64,000 nt of DNA from an uncultured Acidobacteriota bacterium (lineage in GTDB: Bacteria; Acidobacteriota; Vicinamibacteria; Fen-336). A program made the position numbers and the translations under genes. Positions 5,999 through 63,717 of the stretch are shown here, one piece after another. How positions within the stretch are numbered: the first letter of the stretch is position 1; each line of letters begins with the position of its first letter. The notes under the pieces are model-generated. The model saw only the letters and a program-made list of their open reading frames with translations, had not been told where the DNA came from and did no database searches. The stretch is taken from contig CADEEV010000020.1 in NCBI GenBank assembly GCA_902826455.1, forward strand, positions 1 through 64,000, read 5' to 3'.

Positions 5999-6041
5999 GG
6001 CTCCGCCGACCTCCCTGGAAAACGCGAGGATAGCATGGCGC

Positions 6042-6069
6042 CTGACGGCCGGATCGCGTGTGGTAGCAT
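6042..6069 (+). promoter_or_regulatory. Candidate sigma-70-type promoter of galU
   Basis: CTGACG (6042-6047) and TAGCAT (6064-6069) are separated by 16 bp, and TAGCAT ends 11 bases before the galU ATG. The spacing suits a housekeeping promoter, but each hexamer matches only four of six consensus bases. It would give a very short leader. Confidence 0.4.
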
Positions 6070-6080
6070 CGCGAACGAGC

Positions 6081-6953
6081 ATGCCTACGATCCGAAAAGC
6101 CGTGTTTCCTGCCGCAGGCCTCGGCACGCGCTTCCTTCCGGCGACCAAGGCGCAGCCGAAGGAGATGCTGCCCCTCGTCGACAAGCCGATCATCCAGTAC
6201 GTGATCGAGGAGGCAGTGGCCTCGGGCCTCACCAACATCATCATCGTGACCGGCCGCGGCAAGAACGCGATCGAGGATCACTTCGACGTGTCCTACGAGC
6301 TCGAGCGCATGCTCCACGAGCGCGGCAAGACCGAGCTCCTGGAGCAGGTGCGCGCCGTTTCCAACATGATCAACGTGTCCTACGTGCGCCAGGGCGAGAC
6401 CCTGGGGCTGGGACACGCGGTCCTCATGGCAAAAGACCTCATCGGCGACGAGCCCTTCGCCGTCATGCTCGGCGACGACATCATCGACAGCGAAGTGCCC
6501 TGCATGCGCCAGATGATCGACGTCTACGAGGCCCACAAGGCTCCCGTGGTCGCGGTGCAGAAGGTGCCGAAGAGCGAGATCTCCGCCTATGGCGTGATCG
6601 ATGGCGAGCCCGAGGCAGGATCGGATCGCGTGTACCGTATCCGCGAACTCGTGGAGAAGCCCAGGGCCGAAGACGCTCCGAGCGATCTGGCCATCATCGG
6701 CCGATACATCCTGACGCCCGACATCTTCGAAGCTCTGGAGAAGACGCCGCGCGACGCCGGTGGCGAGATCCAGCTCACCAACGGGCTCCGGGCGCTCAAG
6801 CAGAAGCGCCCGCTGTTCGGCTGCCGCTTCGAAGGCGTGCGGCACGATGCCGGCAACAAGCTGGGATTCCTGAAGGCGACCGTGGAGTTCGCGCTCAAGC
6901 GCCCCGACCTCGGCGGCCCGTTCCGCGAGTACCTGCGGGGCCTGAAGCTCTAG
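6081..6953 (+). CDS. galU: UTP-glucose-1-phosphate uridylyltransferase
   Basis: 290 aa nucleotidyltransferase that makes UDP-glucose from UTP and glucose-1-phosphate, feeding envelope polysaccharides and, in this genome, probably glucosylglycerate synthesis by GpgS at 36152. The signature [20 protein letters not shown] is at residues 5-24, the catalytic [10 protein letters not shown] follows, and the metal-site Asp lies in MLGDDII. The VEKP motif in [11 protein letters not shown] and the KLGFLKA C-terminal segment are typical. The ATG at 6081 is the family start. Confidence 0.96.
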
Positions 6954-29340: not shown

Positions 29341-29568
29341 TTACTTGATGGCGAGGAGGATCGTGACGATCAGGGCGAAGAAGGTGGCGCCTTCGATCAG
29401 GCCGGCCGCCACGATCATGCCGCCGCGGATGTCGCCGGCCGCGTTGGGCTGGCGCGCGATGCCTTCCATCGCCGAAGCCGCGAGCTTGCCGATGCCGCCG
29501 GCGGCACCGATCATCGTGAGACCGGCGCCGATGCCGGCAGCGAAGTACGCGAGACCCTTGGGATCCAT
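29341..29568 (-). CDS. atpE: ATP synthase F0 subunit c
   Basis: 75 aa two-helix proteolipid. The polar loop is GIARQPNAAGD, and the ion-carrying carboxylate is the Glu in GLIEGATFFALIV. The Gln/Ser/Thr ligands of Na+-binding c rings are not evident, so the ring is probably H+-coupled. ATG 29568 or GTG 29574 both sit behind a strong AGGAGG; I prefer the ATG. Confidence 0.95.
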   Translation of the reverse strand: MDPKGLAYFAAGIGAGLTMIGAAGGIGKLAASAMEGIARQPNAAGDIRGGMIVAAGLIEGATFFALIVTILLAIK

Positions 29569-31218: not shown

Positions 31219-33081
31219 TCAGGATCGCGGTGACCACCAGACGACTTCGTAGGGACGCAGGACCAGGTCGAGGCTGTCGCGGACCGTCGTCGTCCGACGC
31301 GAGAGAAGGTCCCTGCAGGAGCCGGAAAGGCCCGGGATCTGGGCGACCGGGAGACTCACCGGCTGGTCCGCGTCCGTCACGTTCGTAAGGGCCAGGACCG
31401 GCGCAGCGCTGCCCCCGCCGCCCCGCAGGACCGCGAAGACTCCCCGGCCGGCGTCCACGACGGACTGGGGCGCGTTGGGATGGAAGGCGGGCGTCGCGAT
31501 CCGGCGGCGGGCCAGGCGCCGCAGCCGGGTGGCCACCTGGTGGACCCAGCTCTCGCGGTCCTGGAGCAGGGCCACGAGGGCCGGCTCGTCCAGGGTCTTG
31601 CGGTTGATGCTGCGCTTCTCCTTGCCCGCCAGGATCGCCGCCGTGTCGTTCTTGGCCCCGAACAATCCCGGCAGGTAGACGCCCGGCACCCCACGCAACA
31701 CCAACGCGATTGCCCGCGAGGCCAGGTAGCGATCGACCTGCAGGTCCTGGGATTCGTCGGCCCCCTCCTTGTTGAGCGCGCTGTACCAGGTGATGTTGAG
31801 CTCGTAGGGACTCTCGCTGCCGTCTCCGGCCGAACGGTACGAGACGAGTCCCCCGTGCTCGCGCGCCTTGTCCACGAGCACCCCGATCTCCTCGGGCGAG
31901 AGCAGGCCCTGGGCCCCCAGCAGGCCGATGCCGTCGTGGGAGTCGAGGAAGTTGAAGTAGGTCGCGGTCTTCGAGACGAAGTCGAGGTCCTGCGCCCAGC
32001 GCGTGAGGCGGCGCGCGTCGCCGGCGTGGAGCGTGTGGAGCACCAGCGGGGGCAGGGCGAAGTTGTAGACCATCTGTGCTTCCCGCGAGCCGTCGGCGAA
32101 GTAGCTGACGTTGTCCGCGTGGGGCACGTTCGTCTCGGTCACGAGGGCGACCTGGGGGGCCACGACGTCGAGGATGGCCCGGAACAGCTGGACGAGGGCG
32201 TGGGTCTCCTTGAGGTGGGCGCAGCGCGTGCCGAGCTCGTGCCAGATGTAGGTGATCGCGTCGAGGCGCACGATGTCGGCCCCGCGCCGCACGTACTGCA
32301 GGAGGATCTCGACGACTCGGGCCAGGACCCGCTCGCTCTTGAAGTTGAGGTCCACCTGGTCGGGGCTGAACGTGGTCCATACGAAGCGCGCGCCGTCGAG
32401 CGTCGCGAAGCGCGTCAGGAGGTCGGAGGTGCGCGGCCTCAGGATGAGCCGCAGGTGGTCGGGGGAGATGGCGCCGCTCGTCGAGAAGGCGATGAAGAAG
32501 TCCTGGTAGTCGGGCTGACCGTCGAGGAAGCGTTGGAACCACTGGCTGCGGGCCGAGGCGTGGTTGAACACGCCGTCGAACATCACGCGGTAGCGCGTCG
32601 AGATTTCCTCGATGTCGCGCCAGCTGCCCAGGCTCGGGTCGACCTCCTCGAAGTCCGTGACCGCGAAGCCCCGGTCCGAGGAGTAAGGGAAGAACGGCAG
32701 GATGTGGACGGTGTTGACGGCGCCGCGCATGAAGCGGTCGAGGAAGTCCGCGAGCGCTGCGAGGGGCATCCGTCCCGGGGAGACGAGGAGGTCGCCGTAG
32801 GTGATGAGGATGATGTCCTTCTCCGAGAAGCGATCCTCGGGCGCGAAGTCCTGGTCGTCCTGCAGCATCTCGGGCGTCTTGTGGGCCCAGTGCACCTTCA
32901 TCAGGCGCTCGACCTCGCCGTAGCAGGAGTCGGCGCGTGCCTTGCCGTAAAGCACCGCCAGCAGCTCGAGGATGCGCGCCTTCGCCTCGGGACGCACCTG
33001 CAGCAGGGGGCGGGCGTAGTCGGGTTGCGGGAGGTGCAGGCGGGTGAGGCGCAGCGGCACCATCGCGACGGCCCCAGGCAT
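31219..33081 (-). CDS. GH13_18 sugar phosphorylase, probably glucosylglycerate phosphorylase
   Basis: 620 aa alpha-amylase-superfamily enzyme of the sucrose phosphorylase subfamily. Key residues are nucleophile Asp274 (ADIVRLDAITYIW), acid/base Glu316 (VTETNVPHADNVSYF) and the transition-state pair His382-Asp383 (FLDSHDGIGL). The IWHELGT and CAHLKETHALVQLF segments match the glucosylglycerate phosphorylase branch better than classical sucrose phosphorylases. The neighbouring gpgS and phosphatase genes support glucosylglycerate as the substrate, phosphorolysed to glucose-1-phosphate and glycerate. ATG 33063 is an alternative start. Confidence 0.88.
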   Translation of the reverse strand: MPGAVAMVPLRLTRLHLPQPDYARPLLQVRPEAKARILELLAVLYGKARADSCYGEVERLMKVHWAHKTPEMLQDDQDFAPEDRFSEKDIILITYGDLLVSPGRMPLAALADFLDRFMRGAVNTVHILPFFPYSSDRGFAVTDFEEVDPSLGSWRDIEEISTRYRVMFDGVFNHASARSQWFQRFLDGQPDYQDFFIAFSTSGAISPDHLRLILRPRTSDLLTRFATLDGARFVWTTFSPDQVDLNFKSERVLARVVEILLQYVRRGADIVRLDAITYIWHELGTRCAHLKETHALVQLFRAILDVVAPQVALVTETNVPHADNVSYFADGSREAQMVYNFALPPLVLHTLHAGDARRLTRWAQDLDFVSKTATYFNFLDSHDGIGLLGAQGLLSPEEIGVLVDKAREHGGLVSYRSAGDGSESPYELNITWYSALNKEGADESQDLQVDRYLASRAIALVLRGVPGVYLPGLFGAKNDTAAILAGKEKRSINRKTLDEPALVALLQDRESWVHQVATRLRRLARRRIATPAFHPNAPQSVVDAGRGVFAVLRGGGGSAAPVLALTNVTDADQPVSLPVAQIPGLSGSCRDLLSRRTTTVRDSLDLVLRPYEVVWWSPRS

Positions 33082-33140
33082 GTCTCGTTTCACCGTACGC
33101 AACGGCGCGGGAACCGTCAAGGCGCTATCATGCCGGCCTG

Positions 33141-34679
33141 ATGCACGGCATGCTCGCGATCGTCGTCGAACTGCTGCTGATCGCGGCGGCCGTGGGCCTG
33201 ATCGCACGGCGCATCCGCGTCCACTACAGCATCGCCCTGGTGATCGCCGGCGTGCTGGTCGGAGCCTCGCGCCTGCTCCCCCCGACCCACCTCGACCCCG
33301 AGGTCGTGCTCCAGATCTTCCTGCCGATCCTGCTCTTCGAGGCGGCGATCGCGACCGACGCCGAGCGGCTCCGGCAGAACCTGGCGCCGGTCGTGCTGCT
33401 CTCGGTTCCCGGGCTGCTCGCGAGCGTCGGCGTCGCCGGCACCGTCCTGCACTACGGCCTCGGCCTCGAATGGCCCGTGGCGCTGCTGCTGGGGGCGATC
33501 CTCGCGGCGACCGACACGATCGCGGTGATCGCCGGCTTCCGGAAGGTCCGGGCGCCGGCGCGGCTCTCGACGATCGTCGAGAACGAGAGCCTGTTCAATG
33601 ACGGCACCGCCCTCGTCGCCTTCTCCACGATCCTGGCCGTGGCGCTCACCGGCCGCTTCGATCCCGCGCGAGGCATGGTCGAGCTCGTCTGGGTGACGGC
33701 CGGCGGCCTCGTCACTGGGATCGCGATCGGCGCCCTCGCCGCGCTCCTGATGCGCAGCATCGACGACCACCTGATGGAGATCCTGCTGACGGTGGTCGTG
33801 GCCTACGCCGCGTCCCTCGGCGCCGAGACGATCCACGCCTCGCCGATCCTTGCCGTGGTGGCCGCCGGCATCACGACCCGCGAGGTGGCCTGGAGCGGGC
33901 TCAGTGCCACGGGCAAGGTCGCGATCCGCTCCTTCTGGGAGGTGGCGGCGTTCGGGGTCAACAGCGTCGTGTTCCTGCTCGTGGGCCTCCAGCTCGACTT
34001 CCCGGCGCTGCTCCTCGCGTCGCCCGCGATCGGCTTCGGCCTCCTGGCGCTGACCCTCGGGCGCGCCGCGTCCATCTATCCGTTCCTCGCCCTGCTGCGC
34101 CGGACCGCGTCCCGCGTGCCGATGCCCTGGCAGCACCTGCTGCTGTGGGGGAACCTGAAGGGCAGCCTCTCGATGGCGCTGGCCCTCAGCCTTCCCGTCG
34201 CTCTCGCGCAGCGCGACCTCATCACGGCCGTGGTGTTCGGATGCGCGCTCGTGACCCTGACGGTCCAGGGCCTGAGCCTCGCCCGCGTCGCGCGGGCGCT
34301 GGGCCTGGGCCGCATCGGCAAGGCCGAGGAGCGCCTCGAGGAGGAGCAGGCGCGGCTCCTGGCCGCGCGCGCCGCCCAGACGGAGCTCGATCGCCTGCAG
34401 CGCGTCGGCCTCGTGCCCCATGCGGTGTTCCAGCGCATGCGGGCGGCCTACCAGGGCGTCATCGCGCGCAGCGAGAAGGAGCTCCGCGAGCTCCTCGTGG
34501 TCCATTCCACCGAGGAGGCGCGCCACACCCAGGCCGTGACGCGCCGCCTGCTGGCCGTGGAGAAGAGCGCACTCCAGGACGCGATCAACGCCGGCTTCGT
34601 GCGCGAGGAAGTCGTGGTCGAGCTGATCGCGAACATCGACCGCCGCATCGGCGACGAGCCGGGCGAAAGGGAGCACTGA
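33141..34679 (+). CDS. CPA1-type Na+(K+)/H+ antiporter
   Basis: 512 aa. The first ~390 residues form about 12 TM helices with the CPA1 motifs ILLFEAAIATD and AATDTIAVIAG and the ion-binding Asn-Asp of NESLFNDGTALVAFS. The last ~120 residues are a cytoplasmic helical tail (EERLEEEQARLLAARAAQ onward). It should expel Na+ or K+ in exchange for protons. A TATCAT (33126-33131) sits 15 bp before the ATG with no Shine-Dalgarno. The TrkA-type gene follows after one base. Confidence 0.92.
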   Translation: MHGMLAIVVELLLIAAAVGLIARRIRVHYSIALVIAGVLVGASRLLPPTHLDPEVVLQIFLPILLFEAAIATDAERLRQNLAPVVLLSVPGLLASVGVAGTVLHYGLGLEWPVALLLGAILAATDTIAVIAGFRKVRAPARLSTIVENESLFNDGTALVAFSTILAVALTGRFDPARGMVELVWVTAGGLVTGIAIGALAALLMRSIDDHLMEILLTVVVAYAASLGAETIHASPILAVVAAGITTREVAWSGLSATGKVAIRSFWEVAAFGVNSVVFLLVGLQLDFPALLLASPAIGFGLLALTLGRAASIYPFLALLRRTASRVPMPWQHLLLWGNLKGSLSMALALSLPVALAQRDLITAVVFGCALVTLTVQGLSLARVARALGLGRIGKAEERLEEEQARLLAARAAQTELDRLQRVGLVPHAVFQRMRAAYQGVIARSEKELRELLVVHSTEEARHTQAVTRRLLAVEKSALQDAINAGFVREEVVVELIANIDRRIGDEPGEREH

Positions 34680-34680
34680 C

Positions 34681-35367
34681 ATGTACGTGGTCGTGGCCGG
34701 TGGCGGGCACATGGGCACCCACCTCGTCGCGCGCCTCGTGGCCGAGGGCCACGAGACCGTCGTGATCGACGTGGACCGCGAGGTGACCGAGCGCATCTTC
34801 TCGGAGCAGGGCGTCGTGGTCTTCACGGGCAGCGCCACCGACCTGGGCGTCCTCGAGGAAGCGGGCCTCAAGCGGGCCGACGTGGCCGTGGCCATGACCG
34901 GCCGCGACTCCGACAACCTCGCCTTCTGCCTGCTGGCGCGCCACTGCGGCGTCGCGCGGGTGCTGGCCCGCATGCTGAACCCGCGCTACGAGGTGCCCTA
35001 CAAGCTGGTCGGCGCCACGAAGATCCACAGCGAGGCCAACATCCTCGTGGACTCGTTCATGACGTCGATCGACTATCCCGAGATCGGCGGCCTGATGCAG
35101 GTCGGTCGCGGCGACCTCGTCGCCTTCGACGTGCCGATCCCGATGGGCTCCGCGGTCGACGGCCTGACGATCGCCGACATCGTGCAGCGGCCGGGCTTCC
35201 CGAAGCGCTGCGTGTTCATCGGCGTCGAGCGCGAGAACGGCGACGTCGAGGTTCCCAAGGGCGCGACCGTCATCCACGGCGGGGCCCGCGTCATCGTGGC
35301 CGCCCACCGGCCGGACCTGCCACAGCTCCTGCGGCAGCTGGCGCCCCCGCCCGCCCCTCAGGCCTGA
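34681..35367 (+). CDS. TrkA-type (RCK) NAD-binding regulatory protein
   Basis: 228 aa with a Rossmann RCK_N domain (VVVAGGGHMGTHLVARL, GxGxxG; VIDVDRE acidic end of beta-2; MTGRDSDNLAFCLLAR) and an RCK_C domain (~140-215, LVAFDVPIPMGSAVDG). These proteins gate K+ channels and some antiporters in response to nucleotides. Being translationally adjacent to the antiporter, it probably controls it in trans. The 3' end overlaps the convergent phosphatase gene by 10 bp. Confidence 0.9.
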   Translation: MYVVVAGGGHMGTHLVARLVAEGHETVVIDVDREVTERIFSEQGVVVFTGSATDLGVLEEAGLKRADVAVAMTGRDSDNLAFCLLARHCGVARVLARMLNPRYEVPYKLVGATKIHSEANILVDSFMTSIDYPEIGGLMQVGRGDLVAFDVPIPMGSAVDGLTIADIVQRPGFPKRCVFIGVERENGDVEVPKGATVIHGGARVIVAAHRPDLPQLLRQLAPPPAPQA

Positions 35368-36155
35368 GCCAGCCGCTCTCCCGCCAGTACGGCGAGCACC
35401 GCGGCGTTCCAGCCCACCGGGCCGGGAGCCGGCGCGCGCTCGGCGTCGGGAAACGCCGCGGCGAGGCCGGGATCGACGGCGCCGCCGGGCCGCGGCACCA
35501 GGATCGGGCGATCCACCGCGTGGAGCAGCGGCTCGTCGTTGGCCGCGTCGCCCAGGCCCACGGTCGCGAAGGCCCGGCCCTCGTGAGCGGCCAGGCGCAG
35601 CCACTCGCGCAGCGCCAGGCCCTTGTCGCCGCGCCCGGTCAGGTGGTGGAAGCGGCCACCGTGGGTGACGCGCAGTTCGCGGCGCTCCGCGAGCTCCACG
35701 ATGCGCGGCAGCGCTTCCGGCGTGTCGAGCACGAACGGTTCGTCGTACTCGCGGCGGCGGGCGCGCTCGGCGGCCTCCAGCGACAGGCCACTGAGGCGGG
35801 CGATCTGGGGCGCGCTCAGGCTCGAGAAGCCGCGCACCCGCGCGCCGGCCTCGGCGGCGATCTCGGCGAGAGCCGTGACGAGGTCGGCGTGGCGGGCGCC
35901 GAGCACGTGGACGGCGCCGCCGCTCTCCGCGGGCATCACGAAGGCTCCGCCGTTCTCGACGATCATCGGTCCCGCGAGACCCAGGTCCCGCGACAAGGGC
36001 TCCATCTCCGCCCGCGTCTTGCTGCTGCACAGCACGAGGGGCACGCGCCGGGCCCGCAGCGCCGCCACGGCGTCGCGCGCCGGCGCCCAGGAATAGCTCA
36101 CGCTGTCGAGCAGGGTGCCGTCGAGATCGGTCGCGACCAGGAGCGGCGCCGTCAC
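35358..36155 (-). CDS. HAD-IIB phosphatase, likely glucosyl/mannosyl-3-phosphoglycerate phosphatase
   Basis: 265 aa. HAD motif I is LVATDLDGTLLDS (nucleophile first Asp), motif II is in VLCSSKTRAEM, and motif IV is GLGDAANDEPLL. The cap and the SSKTRAE segment fit the MPGP family, which dephosphorylates mannosyl- or glucosyl-3-phosphoglycerate. Its GTG start overlaps the stop of the GpgS gene (GTGA), so the two steps of glucosylglycerate synthesis are coupled. Confidence 0.9.
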   Translation of the reverse strand: MTAPLLVATDLDGTLLDSVSYSWAPARDAVAALRARRVPLVLCSSKTRAEMEPLSRDLGLAGPMIVENGGAFVMPAESGGAVHVLGARHADLVTALAEIAAEAGARVRGFSSLSAPQIARLSGLSLEAAERARRREYDEPFVLDTPEALPRIVELAERRELRVTHGGRFHHLTGRGDKGLALREWLRLAAHEGRAFATVGLGDAANDEPLLHAVDRPILVPRPGGAVDPGLAAAFPDAERAPAPGPVGWNAAVLAVLAGERLAQA

Positions 36156-37399
36156 GCGAGGACCGTTCCGGCCGCGTTGCGCGCCGGCACGCCCTCGGAG
36201 GAGCGCCGCACGGCGTCGAGCAGGCGCAGGCCCGCGTCGGGCACTCCCGCCCAGACGCGCACCCAGTTGGGCACGAGGGGCGCGCCCAGTGGATCGGCGA
36301 GGAACTCGTCGATCGACGTCCGGAGGGCTCCGGCGAACACCTGGACGCTCGACTCCTCGTCGTGGCGGTCGTAGACGAGGCCGTTGACGGTCGCGACCGC
36401 GTAGCTGTCCGCGATCGCGTCCTCCGCCTCGCGCTGGTAGGCGGCGAGGAGACTCCGCAGGAGACCGCCCGAGAGGTTGACGCCGGCGGCGGCCAGGGTG
36501 CGCAGGAGATGCTTCACCACGTCCTTGGCCATGCGGTGAACGCCTTTCGACGCGTCGTCGGCCGACAACTCCTGGTGCTTGTGGTCGTAGCGCTCGGCGA
36601 GCTCGACCTGGCAGATCCGGTTCGCGGCGCGGTGCCGCAGCGCTTCGAAGATCGTGACGATCTCGAGGCCCCAGTCGCACGGCAGGCGCATGCGCTGCGC
36701 CAGGTCGCACTTGACCGCGAACTCGCCCGAGAGTGCGTAGCGGAACGAGGCGACGTAGCGCACGTAGGGATCCTGGCCCATCAGGCGCGTGAAGGCCGCG
36801 AGCAGCGGCGCGAGCAACAGGCGCGTGACGCGCCCGTGGAGGCGATCCGAGACGCGGGCGTAGTAGCCCTTCACGAAGTCGAAGTCGACCGACGGGTCGA
36901 CCGCCGGCAGGATCAGGCGCGCCAGCATCTCGCGGCTGAAGTTGACGACGTCGGCGTCCTGGAACGCCATGTACTCCGCGCGCTCCTCGGCGAGCACGTA
37001 GCCCATGGCGAGCCAGCAGGCGCGGCCCTTGCCCGGCTCGCCGGTGTACAGGCCGGCGGCGGCCATCTGCTCGACGAACTGCTCGACGGCCGGCGCCTCG
37101 TTCCAGAGCACGACCTTGCGTCCCGGGTAGCTCGCGAAGAAGGACGTGGCGCGGGCGTAGTCCCAGACCGTGGCGCGGTTGAGGGAGATGACGAGGGTAT
37201 CGAGGTAGTCGACCTGCTTGAGCTCGGCCAGGATGCGGCCGAGCGCCGGCCGGTCCATCTCGGACGGCACCATCGGCACCACGAGAGAGACGGGGAAGCG
37301 CCCCGTGTAGAGCTTCAGCTGGGCCTCGAGCTCTTCGATGGGGCGCGCGAAGAGCCGGGGCAGCGCCGTGACGGGGCCGCTCTGGTGAAAATCGCTCAT
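36152..37399 (-). CDS. gpgS: Glucosyl-3-phosphoglycerate synthase-like glycosyltransferase (GT81)
   Basis: 415 aa retaining glycosyltransferase of the GpgS/MGS group. Visible features are the nucleotide-sugar site SLVVPMVPSEMDRPALGRIL, the metal-binding DAD in AFQDADVVNFSREML, and the acceptor-site region CDWGLEIVTIFEALRHR. It would use an NDP-glucose (likely UDP- or GDP-glucose) and 3-phosphoglycerate. Together with the downstream phosphatase it should make the compatible solute glucosylglycerate. The choice of glucosyl over mannosyl donor rests on GT81-like appearance and the phosphorylase neighbour. Confidence 0.85.
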   Translation of the reverse strand: MSDFHQSGPVTALPRLFARPIEELEAQLKLYTGRFPVSLVVPMVPSEMDRPALGRILAELKQVDYLDTLVISLNRATVWDYARATSFFASYPGRKVVLWNEAPAVEQFVEQMAAAGLYTGEPGKGRACWLAMGYVLAEERAEYMAFQDADVVNFSREMLARLILPAVDPSVDFDFVKGYYARVSDRLHGRVTRLLLAPLLAAFTRLMGQDPYVRYVASFRYALSGEFAVKCDLAQRMRLPCDWGLEIVTIFEALRHRAANRICQVELAERYDHKHQELSADDASKGVHRMAKDVVKHLLRTLAAAGVNLSGGLLRSLLAAYQREAEDAIADSYAVATVNGLVYDRHDEESSVQVFAGALRTSIDEFLADPLGAPLVPNWVRVWAGVPDAGLRLLDAVRRSSEGVPARNAAGTVLA

Positions 37400-37506
37400 G
37401 GGGACCTCGGACGGAGGGACGGCTCCTGGTCGTCGCCTTGAACGCGTGCCTCCACCCCCGAGGGAGTGGCGCACTGGAAACTCCTACTATAGCGGAGGGT
37501 CGACCC

Positions 37507-38634
37507 TCAGCTCGCCGCGGGTCGACTTTCCACGACCGGGAGCGGCCCCGTGTCCGACGCCGTGGCCGGCCGCAGGACGTCGCGGTAGATCCGGATCGCC
37601 GAGAGCACCAGGGACAGGATCACGGGGCCGATGAGGAAGCCGAGCGGTCCGAAAGTCAGCAGCCCGCCGAGGATCGACAGGAACGCCGTGAGCGGGTGGA
37701 TGCGGGCGGCTCCGCCGAGGATCAGGGGCTTCACGACGTTGTCGATGCCGCTGATCAGGAGCGTTCCGTAGATCAGCATCCCGATCCACTGCCAGTCTTC
37801 GCCGTTGAAGAACAGGTACACGACGGCGGGAACCCAGCCGAGCGCCGAGCCCAGCAACGGGACGAGCGCCGCGAGGAACACGAGAACGCTCCAGAACAAC
37901 GGCGAGGGCACGCCGAAGAACGCGAGGCCCGGCGCGGCCACGATTCCCTGGACGATCGGGACGAGGATCATCGCCTTGAACACGCCCTGGACCGTGAGGG
38001 AGAGGTGCTCCGCGATCGCCAGTTCCTGGGCCCCGGAAAGCGGAGAGATCGCGGTCGCCTCGCGACGCAGCGCGGCGCCGTCCTTCAGGAGGAAGAACAG
38101 CATCATCACGAACAGCAGGAGCTCGAAGAGCGCCTCGGTGAGACCGGCCACGGCCTGCTGCATCAGCGAGTTCGCCGTGACCGCCAGCCGGGAGAGGATC
38201 GCCGATGCGGCCTCGGAGGCCCCCTGTTCGTCAAAACGAAGGAAACCATGCAGCCAGGGGAAGCGTTGAGGCAGCGTCTCGCGCCAGAGCTCGCGCAGGG
38301 CCTCCGGTTGCAAGTGCGGCCGGACCCAGTCGAAGAACGTGATCGCGTGCTCGGACAGGATCGCGACCGAGACCAGCACCGGCACGAGCAGGACGACCGT
38401 GGTCACGAGGACCAGCACGCCGGCGGTCAGGGCGTGGCGGCCCCGGAGCACCACGGACAGGCGCCGTTGCGCGGGCGCCAGCAACAGTGCGACCGACGCG
38501 GCCACGGTGAACACCGCGAGGAAGTGCCGGAAGACGAGGAAGGCGAGTACCGCGATGCCGACGAGGAAGGCGAGCAGGGGATAGAGCACCCGGTTGCGAT
38601 CCGAGGCGCGTCGCCGTGGCACCGTGCCGGTCAT
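37507..38634 (-). CDS. AI-2E family transporter (PF01594-type)
   Basis: 375 aa with about eight TM helices, the family middle LLFVMMLFFLLKDGAALRRE and the C-terminal block GIDNVVKPLILGG with FLSILGGLLTFGPLGFLIGPVILSL. Members have been linked to AI-2 export and, in some organisms, Na+/H+ exchange. Given the neighbouring osmolyte and antiporter genes, an ion or solute role is possible. ATG 38646 is an alternative start. Confidence 0.88.
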   Translation of the reverse strand: MTGTVPRRRASDRNRVLYPLLAFLVGIAVLAFLVFRHFLAVFTVAASVALLLAPAQRRLSVVLRGRHALTAGVLVLVTTVVLLVPVLVSVAILSEHAITFFDWVRPHLQPEALRELWRETLPQRFPWLHGFLRFDEQGASEAASAILSRLAVTANSLMQQAVAGLTEALFELLLFVMMLFFLLKDGAALRREATAISPLSGAQELAIAEHLSLTVQGVFKAMILVPIVQGIVAAPGLAFFGVPSPLFWSVLVFLAALVPLLGSALGWVPAVVYLFFNGEDWQWIGMLIYGTLLISGIDNVVKPLILGGAARIHPLTAFLSILGGLLTFGPLGFLIGPVILSLVLSAIRIYRDVLRPATASDTGPLPVVESRPAAS

Positions 38635-43469: not shown

Positions 43470-45092
43470 CTAGTTGCCGGCGTGGGCCGGCGTCCGATCC
43501 GGGATGATCTTCGGATCCACGACCGGCGTCACGGGGATCTCGGCGGCCGGCGCCGGAGCCGCCGCATGGGCCACGTGGGCGTCGAACTTGCCGGGCTGGA
43601 TCGTCTGCGCGAGGCGTTGCGCCGGCCCCTCGAGGAAGGCGAGCACCGGCTTCGGGTAGATGCCGATCCAGAAGCAGAGCACCACCAGCGGCACGAGCGT
43701 CGCGAGCTCGCGCGCGTTCAGGTCCTGGAGGTGCTCGTTCTCGGGGTTCGTCACCTTGCCCCAGAACACGCGCTGATAGAGCCACAGCAGGTACGCTGCG
43801 CCCAGGACGACGCCGGAGACCGCCCAGTAGGCCCAGATCCTGTTGGCCGAGTAGGCCGCCATCAGGATCATGAACTCGCCGATGAAGCCGTTCAGGAGCG
43901 GCAGCCCCATCGAGGCGAGGAAGAAGATCAGCGTGAAGGTCGCGTAGACCGGCATCACGTGGGCGAGGCCGCCGTACTGCGCGATCTCCCGGGTGTGGCG
44001 GCGCTCGTAGATGAGGCCGACCACCAGGAACAGCCCGCCCGTCGAGAGCCCGTGGTTCAGCATCTGCAGGACGCTGCCCTGCAAGCCCAGGGGATTGAGG
44101 GCGAACATGCCCAGCATGCAGAAGCCCAGGTGGCTGACCGAGGAGTAGGCGATCAGCTTCTTCATGTCCTTCTGGACGATGGTGACGAGCGCGGCGTACA
44201 CGATGCCGATGATCGAGAGCGTGACCACCCACGGCACCGCGTCGAGTGTGGCCTGGGGCAGGATCGGCAGGGAGAAGCGCAGGAAGCCGTAGGTGCCCAT
44301 CTTCAGGAGCACGCCGGCCAGGATCACCGAGCCCGCCGTGGGCGCCTCGACGTGGGCGTCGGGCAGCCAGGTGTGGAACGGGAACATCGGCACCTTGATG
44401 GCGAAGCCCAGGAAGAACGCCAGGAACACCCAGAACTGCAGGTCCGCCGGCACGCCCATCGTGTACCACTGCGTCACGTCGAAGGTGCCGCTGCGCTCGA
44501 GGCCCGGCAGCTTCATCGAGTGGAAGTAGAGCGCCAGGATGCCGAGCAGCATCACGACCGAGCCGACCAGGGTGTAGAGGAAGAACTTGATCGCCGCGTA
44601 GAGCCGGTTGGCGCCGCCCCAGATGCCGATCAGGAAGTACATCGGCACCAGCATCACTTCCCAGAACACGTAGAAGAGGAACATGTCGAGGGCGCAGAAG
44701 ACGCCGAGCATTCCCACCTGGAGCAGCAGCAGGAACACGTAGTACTGGCGCACGCGCGTCGTGACGGAGGTCCACGACGACAGGATCGCGATCTCGCCGA
44801 GGAGCGTCGTGAGGAGGATCAGGAGCGCCGAGACGCCGTCGATGCCGAAGTGGTAGCTGATGCCGATGGCCGGGATCCACTCGCCCCTCTCGACGAACTG
44901 GAAGCCCGTGGCGCCGCGGTCGAACCAGAACCAGAGCGGCAGGCTCACGAGGAAGCCCAGGGTCCCGAACAGGTTCGCCGTCCAGCGCACGGCGTTGTCG
45001 TTGTTGCGGAACAGCGGCAACAACAGCACCAGCGCGCCGACGAGCGGCGTGTAGGTGACGATCGAGAGGAGGTGTTCCCGGAGAAGATCCAT
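43470..45092 (-). CDS. nuoM: NADH-quinone oxidoreductase subunit M
   Basis: 540 aa antiporter-like proton-pumping subunit of respiratory complex I with about 14 TM helices. Conserved elements are YVFWEVMLVPMYFLIGIWGG (Glu in TM5), FAIKVPMFPFHTWLPDAHVEAPTAGS with the pumping Lys, and MLNHGLSTGGLFLVVG. A ~45-residue Ala/Pro-rich tail follows the last helix. It follows nuoL by nine bases; nuoN, its usual downstream neighbour, is absent. Confidence 0.94.
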   Translation of the reverse strand: MDLLREHLLSIVTYTPLVGALVLLLPLFRNNDNAVRWTANLFGTLGFLVSLPLWFWFDRGATGFQFVERGEWIPAIGISYHFGIDGVSALLILLTTLLGEIAILSSWTSVTTRVRQYYVFLLLLQVGMLGVFCALDMFLFYVFWEVMLVPMYFLIGIWGGANRLYAAIKFFLYTLVGSVVMLLGILALYFHSMKLPGLERSGTFDVTQWYTMGVPADLQFWVFLAFFLGFAIKVPMFPFHTWLPDAHVEAPTAGSVILAGVLLKMGTYGFLRFSLPILPQATLDAVPWVVTLSIIGIVYAALVTIVQKDMKKLIAYSSVSHLGFCMLGMFALNPLGLQGSVLQMLNHGLSTGGLFLVVGLIYERRHTREIAQYGGLAHVMPVYATFTLIFFLASMGLPLLNGFIGEFMILMAAYSANRIWAYWAVSGVVLGAAYLLWLYQRVFWGKVTNPENEHLQDLNARELATLVPLVVLCFWIGIYPKPVLAFLEGPAQRLAQTIQPGKFDAHVAHAAAPAPAAEIPVTPVVDPKIIPDRTPAHAGN

Positions 45093-45101
45093 GGACGCTC
45101 C

Positions 45102-47258
45102 TTAGTACGGAATCCAGCGACCGAGGCCGATCAAGAGCAGCACGCCGATGATCATGGCCAGGGCGTAGTGCTGCACCAGGCCGTTCTGCACGGCGCGGAA
45201 CACGTAGCTCAGGTTGTCGAGGAAGAAGGCGGGCAGGCGCGTCAGGCCTCCGTCCACGATCCAGCGATCCCACCAGTTCGAGAGGCGCGCCACCACGTCG
45301 CGGGTCAGGTACACGAGACCGTTGACGCCGAAGCCCGGCCGGACCTCGCCGCCGCCCCCGTCGATCACGTGGCGGTCGTTCTGGTAGAGCGCGTTGCCGC
45401 CGCCGAGGACGAGGCCGCGCACGAACACGGCGCCGTACAGCTCGTCCACGTAGTACTTGTTCGTGAGCACGCGGTGAGCCCCCGCGAACGAGGCCTTGAG
45501 GGCTTCGGCGGCCTGCGGCTGCCACTGGTAGTTGCGGGTCGCGACGAAGATGCCGAGTGCGGCGATCGCGACGCTCGCCGCCATCAGCAGGTACTCCGTC
45601 GCATGCGCCGGGGCTGCGGCCGAGAACACCTCGCCGAGCGCATGGTGGGCGGGCTCGAAGACCGGCTCCGTGAAGTGCTCGAACCAGTTGCCGCCGCCCA
45701 GCGCCGCGGGCACGCCCAGGAAGCCGATGAACACCGAGCCGAAGGCCAGCACCATGAGCGGGATCGTCATCGACGCCGGGGACTCGTGGACGTGGTGCTC
45801 GACCTCGTGGCCACCGCGGAAGTGGCCGCCGAACGTCATCCAGTAGAGCCGGAACATGTAGAAAGCGGTCATGGCCGCGGCCACGAAGCCGACGGCCCAG
45901 ACGATCTGCCCGTAGCCGCCGATCTTGAAGGCGGACCACAGGATCTCGTCCTTGGAGAAGAAGCCGGCCAGCGGCGGGATGCCGGCGATCGCGACGCAGC
46001 CGATCAGCATCGTGAAGTGCGTCTTCGGCATCTTCGACCGGAGCCCGCCCATCTTCGTCATGTCCTGCTCGCCCGACATGCCGTGGATCACGGAGCCGGA
46101 GCCGAGGAACAGCAGCGCCTTGAAGAACGCGTGGGTGGCGAGGTGGAAGACACCGGCCGCGAACGCGCCGACGCCGCAGGCCAGGAACATGTAGCCGAGC
46201 TGGCTCACGGTGGAATAGGCCAGCACCTTCTTGATGTCGGTCTGCACCAGGCCGATCGAGGCGGCGAAGATGGCCGTGAAGGCTCCCACGATCGCCACCA
46301 CGAACATCGCGTTGGGGGCGTGGGAGTAGATGGCCGACGAGCGCGCGACCATGTAGACGCCCGCGGTAACCATGGTGGCGGCGTGGATCAGCGCCGAGAC
46401 CGGCGTCGGGCCTTCCATTGCGTCGGGCAGCCACACGTAGAGCGGGAACTGCGCGCTCTTGCCGGTCGCGCCCACGAACAGGCACAGCGCGATGATCGTG
46501 AGCGTGCCGCCCCAGGCCGTCTCCACCGGCAGGTGCTGGGCGGCGGCGGTGACCGCGCGGAAGTCGAGGCTGCCGAACGTCACGAAGATGAGGAACATGC
46601 CGATCAGGAAGCCGGCGTCTCCGATGCGGTTCACGATGAACGCCTTCTTGCCGGCGTCCGCGGCGCTCTGCTTGTGGAACCAGAAGCCGATCAACAGGTA
46701 GGAGCAGAGACCGACGCCTTCCCAGCCCACGAAGAGCACCGCGTAATTCGCGCCGAGAACCAGCGTGAGCATCGCGAACATGAACAGGTTCAGGTACGAC
46801 ATGTAGCGCGCGTAGCCCGGGTCGTGGGACATGTAGCCGGTCGAGTAGACGTGGATCAGGAAACCCACGAACGTCACGACCAGCACCATCACGGACGAGA
46901 GCGGGTCGACCTGGTACGCCCAGTCGATCGAGAACGGCGTCGACCCGGCGGCGCCGTGGAGCAGCGTCTCGGCGCGTCCGCCCGGCAGCCACGTCCACAG
47001 CGTCTCGACGAGGGTGTGGTCGGGGAGCGCGTGGGCCTTGAGGACCGCGGCGACCGCGACCACGAAGGACGCGAGTACGCTGCCGCAGGCCACGAGGCCG
47101 ATGATCGGCGACGGCGCGGTGTGCCCGTGCCCGCCGCCATGCCCATGGCCGTCGCCCTGGGCCGGTGCGTGCCTGGTGAGCACGCGCACGCCCACGATGA
47201 AATTGAAAAGGAAGCCGAGGAGCGGGAAGAGCGGTATGAGGCCGAGGAACGGGCTCAT
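45102..47258 (-). CDS. nuoL: NADH-quinone oxidoreductase subunit L
   Basis: 718 aa, long antiporter-like subunit with the C-terminal lateral helix. Motifs include FVGWEGVGLCSYLLIGFW, SAQFPLYVWLPDAMEGPTPVSALIHAATMV, and LATHAFFKALLFLGSGSVIHG. A His/Gly-rich stretch (GDGHGHGGGHGHTAP, ~36-50) is inserted between the first helices, an unusual feature that may bind metal or be a neutral expansion. nuoK does not precede it. Confidence 0.94.
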   Translation of the reverse strand: MSPFLGLIPLFPLLGFLFNFIVGVRVLTRHAPAQGDGHGHGGGHGHTAPSPIIGLVACGSVLASFVVAVAAVLKAHALPDHTLVETLWTWLPGGRAETLLHGAAGSTPFSIDWAYQVDPLSSVMVLVVTFVGFLIHVYSTGYMSHDPGYARYMSYLNLFMFAMLTLVLGANYAVLFVGWEGVGLCSYLLIGFWFHKQSAADAGKKAFIVNRIGDAGFLIGMFLIFVTFGSLDFRAVTAAAQHLPVETAWGGTLTIIALCLFVGATGKSAQFPLYVWLPDAMEGPTPVSALIHAATMVTAGVYMVARSSAIYSHAPNAMFVVAIVGAFTAIFAASIGLVQTDIKKVLAYSTVSQLGYMFLACGVGAFAAGVFHLATHAFFKALLFLGSGSVIHGMSGEQDMTKMGGLRSKMPKTHFTMLIGCVAIAGIPPLAGFFSKDEILWSAFKIGGYGQIVWAVGFVAAAMTAFYMFRLYWMTFGGHFRGGHEVEHHVHESPASMTIPLMVLAFGSVFIGFLGVPAALGGGNWFEHFTEPVFEPAHHALGEVFSAAAPAHATEYLLMAASVAIAALGIFVATRNYQWQPQAAEALKASFAGAHRVLTNKYYVDELYGAVFVRGLVLGGGNALYQNDRHVIDGGGGEVRPGFGVNGLVYLTRDVVARLSNWWDRWIVDGGLTRLPAFFLDNLSYVFRAVQNGLVQHYALAMIIGVLLLIGLGRWIPY

Positions 47259-60329: not shown

Positions 60330-61865
60330 ATGCCCTCTCCTGAAGTCCGGCGCCTCAGCGATCTCCTCGAGATCAGCCGCATCCTCGCGTCGACGCTCCA
60401 CGTGCGCGCGGCCTTCATCCGCGCCCTCGAAGTCCTGGAGAAGAACCACGGCGCCGTGCTCGCCCTCGTGGCGCTCAAGGACGCCGGGTCCGACGAGATC
60501 GCCGTGGAGGCCGCCATCGGCGTGCCGCTCCCGGCCTCGCGTCGGGGCCGGTACAAGTCCGGCGAAGGCATCCTCGGGCGGGTCTTCGAGAGCGGCCGGC
60601 CCGTCGTGGTGCCCCAGGTCAGCAAGGAGCCGCTGTTCCTGAACCGCATGGGCGCCTTCCTCCCGAGCGGTCCCGAGATGACGTTCATCGCCGTGCCCGT
60701 CGCCGTCGACAGCAAGATGGTGGGAGTGCTCGGCGTGGGCTACCGCTTCCAGCGCGAGCGCCACTACGACCCGGAGGCGAAGTTCCTGGCGGTCGTGGCC
60801 TCGATGGTCGGGCAGGCCGTGCGCGTCCACGGCCTCGTGGAATCCGAGCGGCGACGGCTGGTCGAGGAGAACACGCAGCTGCGCCAGGAGCTGCGGGAGC
60901 GCTACGCGATCCACAACATCGTGGGCAACAGCCGGCCGATGCAGGAGGTCTACGACCAGATCGGCCAGGTGGCGCCGTCGAACACGACCGTGCTCATCCG
61001 CGGCGAGAGCGGCACGGGCAAGGAGATGATCGCCCACGCGATCCACTACAACTCGCCGCGGGCCGAGAAGCCGTTCGTGGTGGTCAGTTGCGCCGCACTT
61101 CCCGAGAGCCTCATCGAGTCGGAGCTGTTCGGGTACGAGAAGGGCGCGTTCACCGACGCCCGGACCCAGAAGAAGGGGCGTTTCGAGCGCGCCCACGGCG
61201 GCACGCTGTTCCTGGACGAGATCGGCGAGCTGTCGCTCTCGACCCAGGTCAAGCTGCTCCGGGTCCTTCAGGAGCGCGAGTTCGAGCGCCTGGGCGGCAC
61301 CCATTCCGTCAAGGTCGACGTACGGCTCCTGACGGCGACCCACAAGGACCTCGAGCTGGGCGTGCAGGCCGGCACCTTCCGCGAAGACCTCTACTACCGG
61401 CTGAACGTCTTCAGCATCTTCCTGCCGCCGCTGCGCGACCGCCGGCCCGACATCCTGCTGCTCGCCGACCACTTCGTCGAGAAGTACGCCCTCGCCCACG
61501 GCAAGGACGTGCGTCGTCTCGCGACGACGGCCATCGACATGCTGATGGCCTACCACTGGCCCGGCAACGTCCGAGAGCTCGAGAACTGCATCGAGCGCGC
61601 CGTCCTCGTCTGCGAGGGCGGCGTGATCCACGCGCACCACCTGCCGCCGTCGCTGCAGACCGCCGAGGTCTCCGGGACCCTGCCGCGCCGATCCCTCGAG
61701 AAGGCCGTCGAGAGCTTCGAGCGCGATCTCATCCAGGACGCGCTCAAGAGCGCTCGTGGCAACAAGGCGCGGGCCGCCCGCCTCCTCGACACCACCGAAC
61801 GGATCCTCGCGTACAAGGCGCGCAAGTACGCGATCGACGGGCGCCGCTTCCGCGTGAAGCGCTGA
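60330..61865 (+). CDS. NifA-type sigma-54-dependent transcriptional activator (GAF-AAA+-HTH)
   Basis: 511 aa. The GAF domain (~15-170) senses a signal and a linker coiled coil follows. The AAA+ domain (~195-425) has Walker A GESGTGKE (225-232), Walker [13 protein letters not shown], and the sigma-54 contact loop GAFTDA (272-277) instead of GAFTGA. The C-terminal HTH ([19 protein letters not shown]) has the NifA-like form. Placed directly upstream of amtB-glnK, it probably activates nitrogen-scavenging genes. No nif genes are in the window. Confidence 0.92.
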
Positions 61866-61900
61866 GAGCGCCGGCCGGACGCTCGCGTCGGGGTTCTGCT

Positions 61901-61920
61901 CTGATCCTTCAAATTTGTCG
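61901..61920 (-). promoter_or_regulatory. 20-bp motif, copy 2 (putative enhancer site)
   Basis: On the minus strand this reads CGACAAATTTGAAGGATCAG, 18/20 identical to copy 1. It lies about 100 bp upstream of the sigma-54-like -12 element of amtB, a normal distance for an activator site. A NifA-style TGT-N10-GCA (61916-61931; consensus ends ACA) overlaps its right end. Confidence 0.55.
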
Positions 61921-61973
61921 CCCGTTCCGCACGGATCTCGCGCGCTCCTTGGCTGGCAAGTCGTTCTAGAGCC

Positions 61974-61988
61974 AGCGCCTTCGGCGCT
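61974..61988 (+). repeat. Small perfect hairpin between enhancer motif and promoter
   Basis: AGCGCC (61974-61979), loop TTC, GGCGCT (61983-61988). There is no T run after it, so it is not an intrinsic terminator. It could be a protein site or a chance GC hairpin. Confidence 0.35.
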
Positions 61989-62008
61989 GCCGGCGCTCGC
62001 GACAGCGC

Positions 62009-62025
62009 CGCGCACGGATCTTGCT
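62009..62025 (+). promoter_or_regulatory. Candidate sigma-54 promoter of amtB-glnK
   Basis: CGCACGGATCTTGCT: a -24 CGCACG (consensus GGCACG, one mismatch in the GG) and a perfect -12 TTGCT with the required ten-base gap between the dinucleotides (62011-62012 and 62023-62024). The amtB ATG is about 42 bp beyond, with AAGGAGG between. It fits activation by the adjacent sigma-54 activator. Confidence 0.5.
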
Positions 62026-62065
62026 ATCTCCGACGAGGCACTGTTCTCCAAGGAGGCCCCTGAAG

Positions 62066-63355
62066 ATGAGCGGAAGCGATACCGCCTGGATGCTGATGTC
62101 GTCGGCGCTCGTGCTGCTGATGACGCCCGCCCTGGGCTTTTTCTATGGCGGTCTCGTCCGCGGCAAGAACGCCCTGAACACGCTGATGATGAGCGTCTCG
62201 GCGCTCGGCGTCGTCGGGCTGGTGTGGGCCCTTCTCGGCTACTCCCTGGCCTTCGCGCCCGGCAGCGGTCTGCTGGGCGGCCTCGGCTTCCTGGGCCTGC
62301 GCGGTGTCGGGCTCGAGGCCCAGGGCACGATTCCCCACGTGCTGTTCATGGGCTATCAGGGCACGTTCGCGATCATCACCGCCGCGCTCATCTCGGGCGC
62401 GATCGTCGAGCGCATGCGCTTCGGTCCGTACCTCGCCTTCATCACGCTCTGGAGCCTGGTGGTCTACGCGCCCTTCGCGCACATGGTGTGGGGCGGCGGC
62501 TGGCTCGCGAAGCTCGGGGCTCTCGACTTCGCCGGCGGGACCGTCGTCCACGTCAACGCGGGCGCCGCGGCCTTCGTGGCCGCCTGGATGCTCGGCCCGC
62601 GCAAGGACTACGCACGCCAGGCGATCCTGCCCCACAACGTTCCCTTCGTGGTGCTGGGCGCGGGGCTGCTCTGGTTCGGCTGGTTCGGGTTCAACGCCGG
62701 CAGCGCCCTGGGCGCCAACGCCTCTGCGGCGCTCGCCTTCGTGAACACCATGTTCGCGCCCACCGCGACCCTCGTGGTCTGGACGCTGCTCGACCTGCGG
62801 CGCACCGGCCGGGTGACGGCCGTGGGGGCTGCGACGGCCATCGTGGTCGGCCTGTTCGCGGTCACGCCGGCCGCCGGCCTCGTGAGCCCGATGAGCGCGA
62901 TCCTGCTCGGCGGCGTCGCGGCCATCCCGAGCTACTTCGGCCTGCTGCTGCGGGCCCGCACCCGCCTCGACGACTCCCTGGACGTCGTCGCGGCCCACGG
63001 CCTCGGCGGGACCGTCGGCTCGCTGCTCACCGGCGTCTTCGCCCAGAAGGCCTGGAGCGGCGCCGCCGACGGCGCTCTCTTCGGCAACCCGCGCCAGCTC
63101 GGCATCCAGCTCGTCGCGACGCTCGCGGCGGTGGCCTGGAGCGCGGCGCTCACCTTCGTGCTGCTGAAGCTGATCGGCGCGATCGTCCCGCTCCGCGCGA
63201 GCCTGCGCGACGAGGGTCTCGGCCTCGACATCAGCCAGCACGGCGAGGAAGCGTACGCGCGCGACGAGGGCGCCATCCTGATCCTGCCCCATGCGAAGCC
63301 CGTAGCGGTCGGCGCTGCGGCCCTCGAGGCGGCTCCGGAAGGAGGCCGCGCATGA
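62066..63355 (+). CDS. amtB: Ammonium transporter
   Basis: 429 aa with 11 TM helices. Family motifs are TPALGFFYGGLVRGKN, GGTVVHVNAGAAA with the first pore His, WFGWFGFNAGSAL, and AHGLGGTVGSLLTG with the second pore His. A ~55-residue cytoplasmic C-terminal tail (RDEGLGLDISQHGEEAY) is the usual GlnK-docking region. It imports ammonium when nitrogen is scarce. AAGGAGG precedes the ATG at 62066. Confidence 0.96.
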   Translation: MSGSDTAWMLMSSALVLLMTPALGFFYGGLVRGKNALNTLMMSVSALGVVGLVWALLGYSLAFAPGSGLLGGLGFLGLRGVGLEAQGTIPHVLFMGYQGTFAIITAALISGAIVERMRFGPYLAFITLWSLVVYAPFAHMVWGGGWLAKLGALDFAGGTVVHVNAGAAAFVAAWMLGPRKDYARQAILPHNVPFVVLGAGLLWFGWFGFNAGSALGANASAALAFVNTMFAPTATLVVWTLLDLRRTGRVTAVGAATAIVVGLFAVTPAAGLVSPMSAILLGGVAAIPSYFGLLLRARTRLDDSLDVVAAHGLGGTVGSLLTGVFAQKAWSGAADGALFGNPRQLGIQLVATLAAVAWSAALTFVLLKLIGAIVPLRASLRDEGLGLDISQHGEEAYARDEGAILILPHAKPVAVGAAALEAAPEGGRA

Positions 63356-63717
63356 AGATGGTGGTCGCCATCGTCCGGCCGGAGAAGCTGAGCGAGGTGC
63401 TCGAAGCGCTGTTCCACGCCGAGGTCCGCGGTCTCACGATCACGCGCGTGCAGGGTCACGGCGGCGAGATCGAGCGCGTCGAGACGTACCGCGGCACGAC
63501 CGTCAAGATGGAGCTGAGCGAGAAGGTGCGTCTCGAGATCGGGGTGTCCGACCACTTCGTCGAGACCACGGTGAACGCCATCCTCGGGGCGGCGCGCACG
63601 GGCCTCGTCGGCGACGGCAAGGTCTTCGTGGTGCCGGTCGAGAAGGTGTACCGGATCCGGACCGGGGAAGAGGACCAGGCGGCGGTCACGCCGATCGCCG
63701 AGACCGTCGCGGGCTAG
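63352..63717 (+). CDS. glnK: Nitrogen regulatory PII protein (GlnK type)
   Basis: 121 aa. The PII fold includes MVVAIVRPEKLSEVLEAL, a T-loop with the modifiable Tyr in VETYRGTTV (Tyr46), the B-loop TGLVGDGKVFVVPVE and the C-loop RIRTGEED. It should bind 2-oxoglutarate/ATP and block AmtB when nitrogen is plentiful. Coupled to amtB by ATGA. The stop overlaps that of the convergent NadR-like gene. Confidence 0.95.
   Translation: MKMVVAIVRPEKLSEVLEALFHAEVRGLTITRVQGHGGEIERVETYRGTTVKMELSEKVRLEIGVSDHFVETTVNAILGAARTGLVGDGKVFVVPVEKVYRIRTGEEDQAAVTPIAETVAG

Follow-up and report, generated by a model that had tools for sequence, protein, structure and literature searches.

Overview of Glucosylglycerate Metabolism and the Locus

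Glucosylglycerate (GG) serves as a counter-ion of K+ or Na+ under nitrogen limitation, as described in PMC11009771. Within the GH13_18 enzymes, the 2-O-alpha-glucosylglycerate phosphorylases (GGaP) are recognized by two markers, described in a review and a second paper (PMC7178133; PMC6720575): (i) a (T/S)ETN motif at strand 5 and (ii) a Glu in loop A, a position occupied by Gln in the other GH13_18 enzymes (PMC7178133). The same review places GGaP genes often in the company of gpgS, gpgP or glycerate kinase genes (PMC7178133), so that the pairing of phosphorylase and gpgS is not new. The present analysis concerns a locus in an Acidobacteriota genome in which predicted genes of both GG synthesis and phosphorolysis surround a CPA1 antiporter gene and its RCK partner. 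The window, i.e. the whole stretch analyzed, comprises the first 64,000 bases of contig G000:C20 (82,720 bases), G000 being the source genome (assembly of 5.26 Mb in 108 contigs) and other G numbers denoting compared genomes. Among the papers searched, 'glucosylglycerate' and 'Acidobacteri' are mentioned together only in one, which by its title deals with desert cyanobacteria.

The locus probably makes and recycles GG, an anionic compatible solute, beside a cation/proton antiporter (probability about 0.7), and is composed of known enzymes in a new arrangement:

31219-33081, minus strand: GH13_18 phosphorylase, predicted GGaP (TETN motif, loop-A Glu in SPYE, identity to YcjM)
33082-33140: divergent intergenic region between GGaP and CPA1, 59 bp from one start codon to the other with 33081 taken as the GGaP start
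33141-34679, plus strand: CPA1 cation/proton antiporter with an NESLFND core (PF00999)
34681-35367, plus strand: RCK protein with TrkA_N and TrkA_C Pfam domains, starting 1 bp past the CPA1 stop codon
35358-36155, minus strand: HAD-IIB phosphatase of the MpgP/GpgP type (TIGR01486)
36152-37399, minus strand: GpgS-type glucosyl-3-phosphoglycerate synthase, predicted GT-A fold (NCBIfam family match, motifs, fold model)
37507-38634, minus strand: PF01594 (AI-2E/UPF0118) membrane protein (Pfam match), upstream of gpgS

A sequence-only reading of this DNA had described a GTGA-coupled synthase and phosphatase, a GH13_18 phosphorylase for GG on the same strand and, between them on the other strand, a CPA1 antiporter with a TrkA-type regulator. 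This gene observation is confirmed: the GTG start of the phosphatase and the TGA of gpgS share GTGA at 36152-36155, with families, motifs and predicted fold in agreement; coordinates and Pfam domains of the antiporter pair likewise agree; and the phosphorylase carries both published markers and co-occurs with gpgS across the phylum. The interpretation built on it is partly supported, as detailed below. In addition, the phosphatase gene shares 10 bp at its 3' end with the convergent RCK gene, and the start of the GH13 gene is best set at 33081 or 33063, not at 33207, the earliest start that the frame allows.

In the proposed pathway, GpgS would join an NDP-glucose and 3-phosphoglycerate, and the HAD phosphatase would then remove the phosphate to release 2-O-alpha-glucosylglycerate. 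The phosphorylase would convert GG and phosphate into glucose 1-phosphate and glycerate, the latter of which might return to glycolysis through a GlxK-type glycerate kinase (PF02595) encoded elsewhere in the genome (G000:C6); a MOFRL-type glycerate kinase was not found in the window's genome. The CPA1 antiporter and its RCK partner may exchange K+ or Na+ for H+, with a nucleotide or another ligand acting, by analogy, as the gate. Since the GG anion needs K+ or Na+ as a counter-ion, the solute and cation pools would have to be adjusted jointly. The scheme builds on observed gene identities, signature residues, co-occurrence and recurrent proximity; the activities of the enzymes, the cation, the role in the living cell and the coordination are inferred.

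Distribution of gpgS and the Phosphorylase

Two sets of genomes were examined, including (i) a phylum set of 247 Acidobacteriota genomes, in which gpgS and GGaP were both counted at E<=1e-60, and (ii) a family set of 14 genomes, in which GGaP was counted at E<=1e-200. The genomes are related and this relatedness was not modelled, so that all p-values given here are too small. In the phylum set, gpgS occurs in 45 genomes and GGaP in 10, with both in 8; gpgS is present in 8/10 GGaP genomes versus 37/237 of the others (Fisher p 2.4e-5), and leaving out the window's own genome gives 7/9 versus 37/237 (p 1e-4). The 10 GGaP genomes spread over 8 families, and both genes are found in 6 of these. Within the window's family, gpgS is present in 10/14 and GGaP in 7/14 genomes, and all seven GGaP genomes possess gpgS. 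A phosphorylase relative (L079, G084:C252, 11939-13621; 44% identity) shares its contig with a weak GpgS-like match (E 4.5e-10) at a distance of about 4 kb.

Antiporters in the Vicinity of Glucosylglycerate Genes

The link between solute and ion genes has independent support that is limited to the family and weak outside it. A PF00999 search of the 55 genomes with gpgS or GGaP, considering a distance of 10 kb from gpgS, disclosed an antiporter gene close to gpgS in 6/10 family genomes, with 0.17 expected from the gene number per genome. Because the window's genome had been chosen for this very proximity, the counts were recomputed without it, giving 5/9 genomes (0.15 expected; p 1e-7 if the genomes are independent) and, counted by genus, 3/6 genera (p 2e-4). 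The antiporters near gpgS comprise (i) CPA1 in G000 and CPA1 together with CPA2 in G008; (ii) in G007 and G012, a CPA2 gene running divergently to gpgS; and (iii) a distant CPA2-like protein, convergent and located after gpgP, in G006 and G013. Five proteins were tested for their type, and none of them scores above the cut-off of 238 bits. The phosphorylase gene also takes part in such pairs, being divergent from CPA1-RCK over 59 bp in the window and, similarly, from a CPA2 gene in G002. The orthologue of the G008 CPA2 protein occurs in 7 copies in 6 family genomes, none of them G000, and adjoins gpgS (G007, G008, G012), GGaP (G002) or CPA1-RCK (G006, G011), with one further copy elsewhere in G002. 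The repeated placement of GG genes beside different antiporters within the family gives a hint of joint management of solute and ions.

It is unlikely, though less so than the other alternatives, that GG is made and recycled as proposed while the antiporter is a chance or positional neighbor that serves pH or K+ homeostasis independently. Besides p-values that are too small, several observations weigh against a joint role of these genes. The exact gene order is unique to the window's genome: GGaP adjoins gpgS in 1/7 family genomes with both, namely the window's own, the two genes lying on separate contigs in G013 (481 and 350 kb) and in five other family genomes (some contigs short), and 2.8 Mb apart in G035, a relative from the same class. 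A CPA1 orthologue is found in 5/14 family genomes, in all five directly followed by the RCK gene; the CPA1-RCK pair is close to gpgS in 2/10 family gpgS genomes (G000 and G008), and it occurs without gpgS in G010 and, in a more distant form, in G045. As a unit, the exact cluster is thus not conserved, which answers the neighborhood analysis that the sequence-only reading had proposed as a check. Outside the family, gpgS loci were read in 23 of 43 genomes, and relatives of CPA1, RCK, PF01594 or GGaP were absent from all 23 (tblastn E<=1e-6; several contigs short), gpgP being nearby in 17; 3/43 genomes have an antiporter at most 10 kb away from gpgS (0.51 expected, p 0.014), a weak excess. Within the family, 4/10 genomes show no antiporter within 10 kb of gpgS, namely G002, G004, G005 (whose genome yields no PF00999 match at all) and G011 (where the contig ends), and for GGaP alone, without the window's genome, an antiporter is nearby in 1/6 (p 0.04 or 0.11 depending on the window size), also weak. 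Furthermore, a promoter and terminator scan found no shared regulatory site: a sigma-70-like match was not detected at the GGaP/CPA1 region, and terminator-like sites were near chance, so that the scan does not support joint regulation.

Against a chance neighbor stand the antiporters in 5/9 other family genomes, which vary in orientation and kind and far exceed the 0.15 expected, and the CPA2 orthologue that moves among gpgS, GGaP and CPA1-RCK. The earlier proposal of one coordinated response to which solute and ion genes contribute thus holds as regards recurrent proximity and falls short as regards regulation. What is preserved more widely is the core of the synthesis module: gpgS and gpgP are adjacent in 10/10 family gpgS genomes, and a PF01594 gene lies upstream of gpgS in 5/10.

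Under the preferred reading of joint solute and cation handling, the window would be one of several family arrangements of the modules CPA1-RCK, CPA2, gpgSP and GGaP. As a tentative and rather speculative extension, these may be mix-and-match modules of this Vicinamibacteria family for handling an organic anion plus its counter-cation, in which an osmotic downshift would switch on GGaP together with the divergent antiporter, disposing of both the anion and K+ or Na+, and an upshift would engage gpgSP and an antiporter to adjust both. The repeated rearrangement of antiporters and solute genes into adjacent positions within one family offers a concrete, testable hint of common handling of anion and cation.

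The Synthase and Phosphatase

The assignment of 36152-37399 as a predicted GpgS-type synthase is supported by its sequence family and by a modelled GT-A fold with a DxD motif. The protein matches the NCBIfam model GpgS_Meth with 297 bits (1.6e-88, positions 2-397 of 402), far from the cut-off of 700, and a second NCBIfam GpgS model with 72.8 bits (cut-off 262), reaching neither curated cut-off; both are narrow equivalog models, and the GpgS function is therefore inferred rather than filed. Residues D148/D150 (the DxD motif), E226 and H273/H275 are invariant in 20 aligned sequences, and the AlphaFold model is confident (pLDDT 89.9). The phosphatase scores 218 bits against TIGR01486, the MPGP family, above the cut-off of 164.75, and displays the DxDGT motif as TDLDGTLL.

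A pair that makes mannosylglycerate instead of GG is improbable, more so than the chance neighbor discussed above. The phosphatase family is named after mannosyl-3-phosphoglycerate, and PF21969, the Pfam family of mannosylglycerate synthase, matches the synthase weakly (29.2 bits, cut-off 27). Comparison of the fold model yields Z 25.3-27.0 for mycobacterial GpgS and a tie with the MpgS from R. xylanophilus (Z 26.0-26.5), so that the fold cannot tell a glucose donor from a mannose donor, which also counts against GG as the product. On the other hand, the best sequence families of the synthase are GpgS, no MpgS model is among its NCBIfam matches, and 5/5 matches to solved sequences at E<=0.001 are GpgS or its unnamed mycobacterial form. 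An enzyme with the GGaP signature in the same genome, together with the co-occurrence of the two genes, points in the same direction.

A Second Glycosyltransferase at Related Loci

At other family loci, gpgP is followed by genes for a GT-A-like glycosyltransferase of about 420 residues (P0007; L026:6078-7349) and an MS_channel_1st_1 membrane protein of about 235 residues (5369-6079), an arrangement seen in 5/10 family gpgS genomes. Among the 23 gpgS loci read outside the family, the glycosyltransferase is found in 12 and the mechanosensitive-channel-type protein of about 235 residues in 7. The loci concerned, inside and outside the family, are L024, L026, L030-L032 and L080-L097. No NCBIfam model scores above its cut-off and no solved sequence matches at E<=1 for P0007, and its fold model is too poor to use (pLDDT 53, 4 sequences); that it adds a second sugar to GG is a guess. 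In five class members (L114-L118: G047, G028, G046, G007 and G018), four of which have no gpgS match, a trehalose-synthase-like GH13 gene is followed by the same two genes, so that their link seems to extend to more compatible solutes than one.

These loci bear on a further alternative, in which GG would not be an osmolyte; it would prime the synthesis of a larger glycan or be a stored intermediate of one, as for the methylglucose lipopolysaccharide of mycobacteria. Among solved GpgS enzymes, the nearest come from mycobacteria and function in that pathway (PMC2581804, by its title), and a second, uncharacterized glycosyltransferase follows gpgP in half of the family gpgS genomes. Nevertheless, P0007 has 0 matches in the window's genome, and the nearby phosphorylase and ion transporters fit a solute better, which leaves a larger glycan very improbable.

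The GH13_18 Phosphorylase

By both published markers, the GH13 protein is supported as a predicted glucosylglycerate phosphorylase (EC 2.4.1.352). The TETN motif (VTETN in the window protein) is present in 8/8 aligned sequences, comprising the window enzyme, E. coli YcjM and six relatives, and the loop-A Glu (SPYE) is likewise found in all eight, whereas the aligned sucrose phosphorylase 7qqj carries Gln. The window protein shares 38% identity with YcjM over 556 positions, YcjM being named glucosylglycerate phosphorylase in RefSeq, and both obtain nearly the same score against TIGR03852 sucrose_gtfA (220 and 221 bits, respectively; cut-off 334). On the published markers, a reading as sucrose phosphorylase or amylosucrase was rejected.

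It is very improbable that the enzyme has no special tie to gpgS and uses sucrose, a different glucoside, or both sucrose and glycerate in the manner of the Xylanimonas enzyme. In favor of this reading, the protein scores under every NCBIfam cut-off, its best PDB matches are structures called sucrose phosphorylase, and a bifunctional, sucrose-active glucosylglycerate phosphorylase has been described (PMC11009771). Against it stand both markers in 8/8 sequences and the co-occurrence of GGaP with gpgS.

Ion-Transport Genes and Genomic Surroundings

The CPA1 protein reaches the PF00999 threshold with 220.7 bits and falls slightly short of the TIGR00831 a_cpa1 cut-off (266.3 versus 279.6 bits), and the TrkA_N and TrkA_C domains of the RCK protein each score above the Pfam cut-off. 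An RCK partner could point to K+ just as well as to Na+, the cation named in the sequence-only reading.

The sequence-only reading had also noted a PF01594 transporter next to gpgS. The gene does lie upstream of gpgS, and its product scores 149.8 bits to PF01594, with ALVPLLGSA as motif C and IDNVVKPLILG as motif D. The signature of the UPF0118 Na+(Li+)/H+ antiporter from Halobacillus andaensis comprises E179(D)-R182(K)-D251-R292-R293-E296-S307 (PMC7221264); in an alignment made by eye against it, D251, R292, R293 and E296 were not found in the window protein, and a third antiporter was rejected on this account. Similarly, galU, which had been proposed to supply the precursor, is real (5916-6953; TIGR01099 381 bits, cut-off 326.8) and lies about 24 kb from the locus without clustering.

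ATP synthase F0 genes are located downstream of GGaP; a Na+-type motif was not seen in the c subunit (29341-29568), and the idea of a Na+-driven ATP synthase next to the locus was dropped. On the PF01594 side, nuoM and nuoL follow at 43470-47258. A nuoM-like gene is also close to gpgS in G008, G013 and G011, which suggests that for some family members this placement of gpgS is old. About 22 kb from the locus, 60330-63717 encodes a P-II protein, an ammonium transporter and a sigma-54 activator of the NifA-like kind, a group noteworthy because GG is tied to nitrogen limitation.

Comparison with Known Systems

Compared to GG synthesis by GpgS and GpgP of the M. burtonii, Persephonella and Synechococcus types, the window pair is alike in the overlap of a synthase of the GpgS family with a HAD phosphatase of the MpgP family and in the predicted order of reactions; its synthase differs by reaching 297 of the 700 bits required by the methanogen model and by its Acidobacteriota lineage. 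The phosphorylase shares the TETN motif and the loop-A Glu with the GGaP of Meiothermus silvanus, Spirochaeta thermophila and E. coli (YcjM), and the company of gpgS and gpgP has been described before (PMC7178133); the window enzyme is about 60 residues longer than YcjM, chiefly at the N-terminus, and its gene is divergent from an antiporter gene. The PF01594 protein belongs to the family of the UPF0118 antiporter from Halobacillus andaensis and differs by lacking, in the alignment by eye, signature residues D251, R292, R293 and E296 (PMC7221264). Finally, the antiporter resembles CPA1 systems with a separate RCK/TrkA subunit, a PF00999 CPA1 protein being directly followed by a TrkA_N-TrkA_C protein, and the window pair, whose cation would be K+ or Na+, differs in sitting between GG genes.

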